Positions 2,100 to 33,076 of a stretch of 34,443 nucleotides of DNA are shown here, in pieces. The stretch's first letter is position 1; each line of letters opens with the position of its first letter. The stretch is from contig JAMCVM010000233.1 in the NCBI GenBank assembly GCA_023475835.1, positions 1 through 34,443 of the forward strand, read 5' to 3'. The notes beneath the pieces were generated by a model that saw only the letters and a list, made by a program, of their open reading frames with translations, was not told the DNA's origin and did not search any database. The position numbers were made by a program, and so were the translations under genes. Origin of the DNA: Bacillota bacterium. Its GTDB lineage: Bacteria > Bacillota > Sulfobacillia > Sulfobacillales > Sulfobacillaceae.

Positions 2100-3455
2100 C
2101 TAAGGGGCGATCCGTTCCGGTGTGGGTTCCGGTTTTGGGTGGCGTCGAACCCACGGATAGGGGATGGTGGTTTCTGGCGCGTCTTCTAACGAAATGTTGG
2201 TGGGGATAGGCACCCAGGGGGATTTTTGCAAACGTACCTTTTGACTCGGATAGACACTGTGATTGCCGATCATGATAAAGGCAGGAACGGCCACGATAAG
2301 AAATCCGGGGGCTAGGCGCGAGCCGAATAGTTCCATGCCCATGATAATGGCCGCGATTGGAGCATTAGCTCCAGCCGCAGTGACCGCGATCATGCCGAGT
2401 TCGGCACCGATCGCTAATGGAATGCCAAGCACACCGGCGAGCACGGACCCGAGGGCGGCCCCAATCACGAAGAGCGGAGTGATGATGCCGCCGCTCATGC
2501 CTAATCCCAGGGTGATGGCAACGAAGAGCAATTTCCACCAAAAGGCAAGGGTCGGCACGCTATGACCGAGTAGAGCGCTCGTCAGCAACGGCAATGAAAG
2601 ACCTCCATATTGCCGTCCCACCATGAGAATAAGCAGGCTTAAAGCGGTCCCGGCTATCAAGGGGAAAATTGGTGGCCACCATCGTCGCTTGTCACGCAGG
2701 TGGTGCACTTGGCGGTGAAGCCCATCCATTAGCAAGACCAGTAAATAGGCGGCTAGGCCCGCTGCGATCCCAATTACCAACAATTTGCCGAAGGACCAGA
2801 CGTTTAGGCGGAGTACCGCTGAAGTCACCGGGTAGAACCAGTGCAGTCCCAAAAAACGAGAGACTTCGAAGGACATGACCGCGGCGGCAAACGAAGGTAA
2901 CAACATTTCGTACCACAGATCGCCGATGGCAAGCACCTCAATGCCCAAGATGGCACCAGCCACGGGAGTGCCGAAGACGGCGGCAAAGCCTGCGCCGATG
3001 CCGCAAATGACAATACGTCGTCGTTGGTCGGGGGAAAACTTGAGGAGGTCAGCGAGCGCCGATGCCAGGGCGGCACCAATTTGTGCCGACGGTCCCTCTT
3101 TGCCCGCTGCACCCCCTGGGGCGATGGTGGTGATGGTGGCCAGTGCCTTAATCGGAGCCACCTTCCAATTGATTTGGCCGGAATGCCGATGGACTGCCCG
3201 AATCACCGCCTCGGTACCGTGGCCGGCGGCGTCAGGAGCGCCATAGTGAATTAACATGCCGGTGACCAAGCCGGCCAATGGGAGAATAATGACCACCAAC
3301 CAAAGGGGCCAGGCATTAGTTAAGGCGATAGACCAAAAGAGCAATTTAAGAAAATAAGTGACCACCAGACCAACCAAGGCTCCGGTTAAAGAGCCCAAGA
3401 CCATCCATAACAGAAGTTGTCGCCCCATTAACATGGGCTCCCAAATCTTTCGCAT
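2100..3455 (-). CDS. ClC-family chloride channel / H+-Cl- antiporter
   Basis: This 451-residue integral membrane protein matches the ClC family of chloride channels and proton/chloride exchangers. Visible motifs are GKEGPSAQIG at residues 118-127, containing the gating glutamate E120, and GGIITPLF at 322-329, the third anion-selectivity motif. The first motif is GHGTEAV near residue 78 in place of the usual GSGIPE, as in the voltage-gated chloride channel subfamily of bacteria. There is no cytoplasmic CBS domain; the protein ends in a short Pro-rich tail. It starts at ATG 3455 with GGAGAT seven bases upstream, and this ATG overlaps the stop codon of the upstream small gene (TAATG), so the two are translationally coupled. 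In acidophiles such proteins are thought to help acid tolerance; that role here is inference. Confidence 0.95.
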   Translation of the reverse strand: MRKIWEPMLMGRQLLLWMVLGSLTGALVGLVVTYFLKLLFWSIALTNAWPLWLVVIILPLAGLVTGMLIHYGAPDAAGHGTEAVIRAVHRHSGQINWKVAPIKALATITTIAPGGAAGKEGPSAQIGAALASALADLLKFSPDQRRRIVICGIGAGFAAVFGTPVAGAILGIEVLAIGDLWYEMLLPSFAAAVMSFEVSRFLGLHWFYPVTSAVLRLNVWSFGKLLVIGIAAGLAAYLLVLLMDGLHRQVHHLRDKRRWWPPIFPLIAGTALSLLILMVGRQYGGLSLPLLTSALLGHSVPTLAFWWKLLFVAITLGLGMSGGIITPLFVIGAALGSVLAGVLGIPLAIGAELGMIAVTAAGANAPIAAIIMGMELFGSRLAPGFLIVAVPAFIMIGNHSVYPSQKVRLQKSPWVPIPTNISLEDAPETTIPYPWVRRHPKPEPTPERIAP

Positions 3456-3724
3456 TAGTCATCTCCTTCCCACTTCAGCGACGAGGCTTCCACTACCACT
3501 AGCCCTAAACGTTGCATGGTCCGATACGCGTCCTGGGTGGTGAATGCGGCCACAGGCAACCCTGTGGCCAGGGACAAGACTTGCTTGGGAGGATACCAAC
3601 GGTCATGTAACTGCACCGCATAGCGTACTAACGGATCCGGCGGTATGGTTTGGGTAACCTTTAGAATATCATCGACAGTAATATCAAACGATTGTCCGCG
3701 CAATACCAATTGCACCCCTATCAT
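3455..3724 (-). CDS. Small YPPK-motif protein coupled to ClC channel
   Basis: This is an 89-residue soluble protein read from ATG 3724; GTG 3715, 9 bases after AGGAGG, is an alternative start giving 86 residues. The open frame extends upstream to 4009, but that part precedes the promoter at 3755-3783 and encodes an artificial Ser-Arg repeat from the hexamer tract, so it is rejected. The segment RWYPPKQVLSLATGLP (residues 42-57) followed by FTTQDAYRTMQRLGL resembles, from memory, the N-terminal head domain found in ScoMcrA-like 5-methylcytosine restriction proteins (YPPK plus hydrophobic helix), here standing alone. No nuclease or sulfur-binding domain is visible. Its stop codon overlaps the ClC start (TAATG). 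Function is unknown; a regulatory or nucleic-acid-related role linked to ClC expression is only a guess. Confidence 0.75.
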   Translation of the reverse strand: MIGVQLVLRGQSFDITVDDILKVTQTIPPDPLVRYAVQLHDRWYPPKQVLSLATGLPVAAFTTQDAYRTMQRLGLVVVEASSLKWEGDD

Positions 3725-3757
3725 CCTCCTACTCCTACTCCTACTCCTACTCCTACT
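3725..3757 (-). repeat. Five hexanucleotide repeats forming the whole leader (tandem SD)
   Basis: Five perfect CCTACT units lie at 3728-3757 on the + strand, followed by CCT at 3725-3727. Read on the minus strand this is (AGTAGG)x5 then AGG directly before ATG 3724. Every unit recreates an AGGAG Shine-Dalgarno core, so the short leader of the small gene is a ladder of ribosome sites. Copy-number change by slippage would alter leader length and site number without moving the reading frame. Confidence 0.9.
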
Positions 3758-3783
3758 ATAAATTTTGCTGCCTAGTCTTGCAA
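3755..3783 (-). promoter_or_regulatory. Sigma-A-type promoter for small gene-ClC operon
   Basis: On the minus strand, TTGCAA (3783-3778) and TATAGT (3760-3755) are separated by exactly 17 bp. The -10 box overlaps the first hexamer repeat, so transcription would begin at about 3748, inside the repeat, with a leader of about 25 nt. Confidence 0.7.
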
Positions 3784-4500
3784 GAAGTCTTAATAGATGG
3801 ATGCATTGCTTATTGCTGAGGACTGTATTGGGGATGGTTGGTCGCTGGCAAATGCTGTCGTCACGGAAATCAGCCTTGGATAAGCAACAAATGAGTGCGA
3901 TGACCAAAATGGGCCTTGGTCGCGCATCATAAGACAAAAGTAGGTAACGAAAGAGGCCAAAATATCGACGAGTTCGACCAGAATGGCAAACGTTGCTATC
4001 GGGGGCCACGGTACTTATTTACCGATCTGTTCTGAAGGTTCTCGTGCCTCGCTTAAGAAGAATTTCATTAAGATCGATCGGCTTTGACTTGAGAGCAGGT
4101 TATTCAAGAAAATTTCTACGGAAAAGTTCGAGCTGCGCCATTTACCACATTAACGAAATAACGTAAGAACCAATCTGGTTATGGACGATGGAAAAAGCCC
4201 TACGTTTTTCATTTACCCATGGTGAGCTACCGTAAAGGCCCAGATCCACGCGGGTTAGCGGGTTTCGGGGCCGGTCCCCTTGGTGGATTACCACCCAGTT
4301 TTAGGTTGCGCTGGGTTAGCGTTAGGCTACGAATTGAAGATAACGTCCGCGCATTCCCCTGCTTAGGCGAAAGCCAAAAAGGTGTCTAATTGAGTTAATT
4401 CGGCGATCGTTAAGTTGACATCATCGACCGTGGATCCCCGACTTCTTTGGAGCCTATCGATCCTTGTTGGCGGGCATTACTCATGCCTGGTGCTGGGCGA

Positions 4501-32713: not shown

Positions 32714-33076
32714 ATGGCAGAAGCACAAGAGGTGTTAGAGGCAAGGGCGTATGTGCGCCAGGTTCGGATCGCGCCGCGCAAGGTCCGGATAGTCGCCGAC
32801 TTGGTGCGGGGGAAGGATTTGCGGAATGCGGAGGCCATCTTGCGCCACACTCCCAAGCGGGCATCGGGGATCTTAGCCAAATTGTTGAAGAGCGCAGCGG
32901 CTAACGCGTACCACAATTTCGAGATGGACCCGAGGGACTTGTACATTCATGCCATTTGGGTGGATGGCGGGCCCACCTTGAAGCGGATTCACCCACGGAG
33001 TCGTGGGCAGGCATTTGCCATTCTAAAACGGACCAGCCACGTTTCGGTCGTTTTGCGACAGCGCCACGGAAGTTAA
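32714..33076 (+). CDS. rplV: 50S ribosomal protein L22
   Basis: This 120-residue protein has a beta hairpin that reaches into the exit tunnel near the macrolide site. It reads ARAYVRQVRIAPRKVRIVADLVRGK, and GPTLKRIHPRSRGQAF forms the hairpin. The start is ATG 32714 after GGGGAGAAGG. Confidence 0.97.
   Translation: MAEAQEVLEARAYVRQVRIAPRKVRIVADLVRGKDLRNAEAILRHTPKRASGILAKLLKSAAANAYHNFEMDPRDLYIHAIWVDGGPTLKRIHPRSRGQAFAILKRTSHVSVVLRQRHGS

Follow-up and report, generated by a model that had tools for sequence, protein, structure and literature searches.

Tandem hexamer units before a small SCO5918-related gene in Sulfobacillaceae, a candidate iterated operator

The omega (ParB) repressor of pSM19035 is described, in the available text of PMC9499535, as a ribbon-helix-helix protein with a role in partition, for which binding to WATCACW heptads in 7-10 copies has been shown. 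The tetranucleotide AGAT repeats of UspA2 in Moraxella catarrhalis range from 6 to 23 copies among strains with a shown effect on expression (as cited in the accessible part of PMC4679880), and the same part of that source reports about 169 sets of TAACTGA repeats before unrelated genes in one genome of marine Beggiatoaceae. The GAA repeats of vlhA in Mycoplasma gallisepticum, present at many genes, lie some 40 nt before the start site and are considered active only at 12 copies, according to the excerpt available of PMC6258824.

Here we describe an array of hexamers before a small gene and a ClC-type gene in the window, meaning the whole stretch of 34,443 nucleotides analyzed. So far as the available parts of those reports reach, our locus resembles the omega system in having a small protein and consecutive, non-palindromic short direct repeats over promoters, that of its own gene included; the array in the window likewise consists of contiguous direct non-palindromic repeats over its own promoter, the promoters here being predicted by consensus only. 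It differs in a unit of 6 bp rather than 7 bp, in another predicted fold and in a binding that is inferred. With UspA2, within the cited account, it shares a variable number of tandem units placed between the promoter and the start codon, but the repeats here track one gene family and can extend into the promoter, and the copy-number difference (5 versus 3) is one between two species of one genus. Like the TAACTGA repeats, as that partial source presents them, the hexamers lie directly upstream of start codons, undergo whole-unit indels in some relatives and suggest a trans-acting binder, as has been proposed there; unlike them, there is one array per gene of one family. A purine repeat of variable copy number at a promoter is also common to vlhA, in the portion of that report available. 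Our literature search, which covered hexamer operators, the chloride channel of Sulfobacillus and the ScoMcrA head, found no description of the array or of the small gene.

Direct reading of the minus strand gives five exact AGTAGG units (3757-3728), AGG (3727-3725) and ATG (3724-3722), preceded by TTGCAA, a 17-nt spacer and TATAGT (Table 1), just as the first-pass annotation had stated. Tandem Repeats Finder places the array at 3726-3757 (period 6, 5.3 copies, matches 100%) with the top score among the 6 arrays in the window, and in its own 3.8-Mb genome it is the sole site with three AGTAGG units at no more than 1 mismatch. It is written below as TAGGAG units, the register common to the homologues. 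The promoter called near-consensus in that annotation does contain both elements at the spacing given; since it matches the consensus at 9 of 12 positions for -35 plus -10, and four equally good matches occur in the same 1 kb (shuffles 1.2 +/- 0.9), it is plausible, not proven. The AGT of the -10 element doubles as the AGT of the first unit, so that only about 3-4 units would enter the mRNA if transcription started 6-8 nt downstream.

Table 1. Coordinates, in the window, of features around the hexamer array
Feature	Position	Strand	Basis
Putative -35, TTGCAA	3778..3783	-	Sequence; 9/12 jointly with -10
Putative -10, TATAGT, its AGT being the first half-unit of the array	3755..3760	-	Sequence, consensus match
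(AGTAGG)x5 + AGG array, candidate iterated operator	3725..3757	-	Sequence, Tandem Repeats Finder, periodicity, homologues
Terminal AGGAGG, likely Shine-Dalgarno site	3725..3730	-	9 nt upstream of GTG 3715
Start codon GTG, likely true	3713..3715	-	Conservation, SCO5918 model, substitution pattern
Small gene (86 aa), distantly related to the SCO5918 family, with a predicted ScoMcrA-head-like fold	3455..3715	-	Homology, model
ClC-type chloride channel/transporter gene	2100..3455	-	PF00654, E 9.2e-69

The small gene probably starts at GTG 3715, and not at ATG 3724 as first annotated, as judged from sequence conservation, the fit to the SCO5918 model and the pattern of substitutions. The GTG position holds a start codon in 12/12 rows of the homologue alignment (7 ATG, 3 GTG, 2 TTG), nothing ahead of it is conserved in the homologues, one of which (G021) is without a start codon at the ATG position, and from GTG 3715 the protein aligns with the SCO5918_fam model from position 1. 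Compared with the sister species, the gene carries 14 substitutions distributed over codon positions as 1, 1 and 12, with 12 synonymous and 2 nonsynonymous codon changes; it is under purifying selection. The AGGAGG touches ATG 3724 without spacing and lies 9 nt from GTG 3715, against 6-9 nt between AGGAGG and start in the four nearest homologues. With GTG 3715 as the start, the last AGGAGG would therefore be one ordinary Shine-Dalgarno site nine bases upstream, and the view that each unit supplies a ribosome site is hard to maintain, given this single rightly spaced AGGAGG and seven distinct homologues whose arrays begin upstream of -10. The proposed coupling of the small gene with the ClC gene stays plausible because the stop of the former and the start of the latter share one base (TAATG, 3455). 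The GTG start sits inside a predicted RNA hairpin (window 3680-3725, z -3.6), right after the mostly unpaired purine leader. The array was also considered as a coding tract, being open as SRSRSRSRSR in its own genome and as SRSRSR in the sister species; it was rejected on the 198 bases before the array, in which 24 substitutions fall evenly over codon positions (7, 7, 10) and 15 nonsynonymous stand against 7 synonymous codons, and on stops close upstream in other homologues.

Matches to the small protein number 19, spread over 16 of the 34 family genomes, the close relatives including Sulfobacillus MAGs, and one more of similar size (G121) comes from another class of the same phylum. A ClC orthologue is found in 21 genomes; it adjoins a small gene, intact or decayed, in 12 of them and does not in the other 9. 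Elsewhere the small gene has a serine recombinase and a 180-aa gene as neighbors, or precedes a D12 adenine methylase. In L040, L041, L042, L045 and L046, small-gene paralogues are divergent from a recombinase-type gene (the Resolvase/Recombinase match was scanned in L040 only) and have a promoter made of TTGAC plus four hexamers; in L045 and L046 the small domain carries a long C-terminal extension. The locus of the other class (L076 1784-2995) has the small gene before the D12 adenine methylase, with a nearby frame that looks HNH-like by eye. The small gene is decayed in L015, L044, L047 and L048, and the adjoining ClC gene is still open in the last three.

By its profile scores the window protein is only a distant SCO5918 relative: residues 1-76, counted from GTG 3715, match positions 1-76 of the 98 in NCBIfam NF038312 with 32.0 bits, below the cut-off of 60 bits. 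All 12 aligned homologues match the same model (best E 2.7e-11) under that cut-off, which is passed in none of the 34 family genomes. No paper found in our literature search names SCO5918. The window protein has no Pfam or PHROG match at E<=1 and no PADLOC match at E<=0.1, and no relative of it was found in phages or viral contigs; weak Pfam rows for a few homologues (E 0.04-0.15) and two designed proteins, with low E in phmmer and absent from the profile search, were taken as chance. The AlphaFold2 model (mean pLDDT 88, pTM 0.77, 8 sequences in the alignment) consists of two strands, a helix, two strands, two helices, a short strand and a helix. Its top three PDB matches in Foldseek are ScoMcrA chains (E 0.13 with probability 0.96, then E 0.30 and 1.2), and structural alignment with 5zmm_B residues 4-100 gives a VIA Z of 5.9 and an rmsd of 4.3 over 66 aligned residues, below the safe level for a fold match. 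The model thus points, through a weak match, to a predicted fold resembling the ScoMcrA head domain, which the available text of PMC6224610 presents as small, flexibly attached and of unknown function, within a four-domain restriction enzyme (PDB 5zmm). No ribbon-helix-helix match is listed for the model, which is not exclusive of that fold, and the viral fold search with it gave no match at E<=0.001. Part of the small-protein domain also matches large AAA-domain proteins, with an AAA_5 match in both of the two scanned; in L071-L075 and L092 the small domain lies N-terminal to the AAA domain, which is McrB-like by eye.

Periodicity was scored over the 60 bases before the start as the lag-6 identity minus the mean of lags 4, 5, 7 and 8, with 1000 dinucleotide shuffles and 156 regions upstream of other frames (150 codons or longer) at the same loci as controls. 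Of 20 homologue places (the 19 matches and G121), 16 were scored as leaders, 15 intact and one of a pseudogene (G010); G029 lies at a contig edge with no upstream DNA, and the decayed G004, G006 and G028 were read by eye only. The 15 intact leaders represent 13 distinct sequences, since G024b/G025b and G027/G025c are identical over the tested stretch. The window leader exceeds all 156 control regions and all 1000 shuffles. The 15 intact leaders belong to homologues down to about 38% identity, with ClC, a recombinase-linked gene or a DNA methylase as the next gene. Every one of them beats at least 957 of 1000 shuffles (0-43 reach them), and the pseudogene leader is reached by 154. Against the real upstream regions, 12 of the 15 are reached by no more than 5 controls, while G025a, G005 and G121, with 15-16 of 156 as high, are not outstanding.

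Counted with a motif taken from the window only (TAGGAG, at least 4 of 6 matching), runs of 3-6 units occur in G000, G009, G021, G024a, G025a, G003, G030, G027 and G025c, those of 3 in G025a and G003 being matched by 5 of 156 controls; G031, G005, G024b, G025b, G007 and G121 have runs of 2 only, matched by 16 of 156. The TAGGAG/TAAGAG/TAGGTG register recurs before small genes with ClC, the 180-aa gene by the serine recombinase or the D12 methylase (G121) next to them. Apart from that of the window, promoters were assigned by eye: in seven distinct leaders (G031, G003, G005, G030, G007, G024b and G027) TTGAC is followed after 5-6 nt by a hexamer frame that runs through -10 into the leader, thus putting units in the putative -35/-10 spacer, and in G000, G009, G021, G024a, G025a and G121 the units begin at or past -10. 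The array in this way overlaps the predicted promoters. The units change in sequence from lineage to lineage, several arrays continue into the Shine-Dalgarno site, and the recombinase-linked leaders hold about four hexamer positions across genera; GGA is sparse in these and in several other leaders. Nine distant actinobacterial plasmid relatives show no visible array and score no more than 0.004, except L079, whose 0.135 equals the weakest leader of the small-gene set. The SCO5918-family members of Streptomyces plasmids further differ from our locus in following a CBS-domain gene.

None of the nine ClC orthologues without the small gene has an array; their last 60 bases score at most 0.025, and the best 60-base stretch within 200 bases scores 0.05-0.20, the top being G026. 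The array goes with the small-gene family, not with ClC, and the idea of the first-pass annotation that it regulates a ClC channel, at least as a general explanation, does not survive these leaders and the arrays of small-gene homologues that precede other genes. Three tandem TARGWG units with 1 mismatch, a pattern derived from the small-gene leaders themselves, occur at 10 places in the 34 family genomes, 7 of them immediately before the small gene; of the remaining three, two represent the same orthologous site, within an apparent frame, and the third lies in G012. The other 120 genomes of the class have 20 further places, of which 12 were read: none is before a small gene, and all 12 fall within an open frame (150 codons or longer) on one strand. 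Only the location of the array, not its frequency, is unusual, because the reversed control pattern is commoner in the genomes (47 versus 17 for the pattern itself). Beyond the array, its own genome has only one three-unit match at 1 mismatch, C127, which falls within an apparent frame of the opposite strand, and one more at 2 (C93); no regulon was seen in this TARGWG scan. At one of the 12 read places (L142 1501-1518), GAGGTGTAGGTGTAAGAG is followed at once by the ATG of an unrelated protein of 161 aa.

That copy number might vary had been anticipated, and among relatives it is not constant. The array has 5 units in its own genome and 3 in the sister species (97% protein identity), where the difference is an exact 12-bp gap with flanks otherwise conserved, and the G003 leader reads by eye as the G031 leader plus one 6-bp unit, the rest being alignable. 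In both pairs copy number shifts in whole units. G024a and G025a, also compared by eye, are 2 bases apart, which is not a unit. A second small tandem repeat is present about 260-280 bases before the small gene of the sister species (L031), as a 20-bp insertion built from two copies of GATAGCAAAA; the window carries a single GATAGCAA copy at the corresponding place, near 4003.

Comparison of these sequences suggests that the array could be an iterated operator of hexamers at which the small protein regulates its own expression, a proposal for which we see about an even chance. Contiguous 6-bp direct repeats of about TARGWG would cover the core promoter and the transcript start, the small gene's own product would bind the units side by side, and the bound protein would repress (activation is less likely) its operon, here with ClC included, while one terminal AGGAGG would serve as the Shine-Dalgarno site. 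The number of units would set the amount of protein bound, so lineages could come to differ in their set point as slippage adds or removes units. The binding to the array, the sign of the regulation and any copy-number effect are what we infer here. An iterated operator fits best because it would explain the tie to one gene family despite different neighbors, the predicted overlap with the core promoter, the fixed 6-bp step with drifting sequence and the change of copy number by units. Weighing against it are the three leaders that do not stand out from the control regions, the runs of only 2 units in six leaders, the weak ScoMcrA match and the actinobacterial relatives in which no array is visible. 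An extension that is possible but doubtful is that the head-like domain reads runs of 6-bp TAGGAG/TAGGTG with one module per unit, that the stand-alone proteins autoregulate, and that the domain takes part in DNA targeting by McrB-like proteins and ScoMcrA.

It is unlikely that the array acts as a purine-rich translation enhancer, a reading close to that of the first-pass annotation, in which spare Shine-Dalgarno or standby sites along an unstructured leader would boost translation of the small gene and slippage would set how many there are. Each unit in the window does give AGGAG across its junction, the leader up to AGGAGG is predicted to be mostly unpaired, and several arrays reach into the Shine-Dalgarno site; but beyond about 15 nt from the start a unit cannot serve as a Shine-Dalgarno site, TAGGTG and TAAGTG units are poor ones, the ClC-only leaders have no units, and a tandem Shine-Dalgarno leader is not the general explanation because seven distinct homologues start their hexamers between the putative -35 and -10, outside the mRNA. 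That there is nothing beyond a purine-rich Shine-Dalgarno region, now and then expanded by slippage, would be a simpler cause for the ClC group, whose units are Shine-Dalgarno-like, and would agree with sequences that differ by lineage; the six-base phase of all 15 intact leaders against shuffles, the hexamer frame set 5-6 nt from TTGAC in seven distinct leaders and again the array-free ClC-only leaders make it improbable.

For the leader in the window itself, the main rival is autoregulation at the RNA level, because most units there would be transcribed: the small protein, or CsrA through the GGA repeats, would bind the transcribed units and block ribosome entry. CsrA is encoded in 27 of the 34 family genomes, that of the window included, the window leader has GGA every 6 nt, and the SCO5918-family genes of Streptomyces plasmids stand behind a CBS-domain gene in 5/5 regions read and behind a DEAD/DEAH helicase in 4/5. 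We nonetheless regard it as quite unlikely, in view of the scarce GGA in the recombinase-linked and several other leaders and of units that, should the predicted promoters be correct, lie partly outside the transcript. TRAP is a known binder of UAG/GAG repeats, but a TRAP-regulated leader was rejected, with PF02081 in none of the 34 family genomes and a positive Bacillus subtilis control. Very improbable, finally, is a slippage-driven phase or dosage switch, in which copy number would change fast in populations and be selected for variability of expression; the 5 versus 3 units of the sister species and the one-unit difference between G003 and G031 are in its favor, and against it stand the imperfections in most homologous arrays, expected to make slippage rarer, and the recombinase-linked leaders, which keep their hexamer positions across genera.

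Under the operator proposal, what looked like an oddity becomes a testable connection between a family of orphan proteins and a DNA target. Binding of the units by the protein, if it occurs, would be the first biochemical handle on a domain apparently also present in restriction proteins, and the natural series of 3 and 5 units could relate operator length to autoregulation in an acidophile ClC operon; if the wider extension is true as well, the head domain, now listed as unknown, would gain a function. Elsewhere in the window, a 21-bp tandem repeat of two copies (32755-32798) has the second-best tandem-repeat score, and a perfect 15-bp inverted repeat, ATTATCCGAGAAAGT ... ACTTTCTCGGATAAT, read by eye at 4567-4501 with 37 bases between its arms, is located in a long upstream stretch without clear genes.
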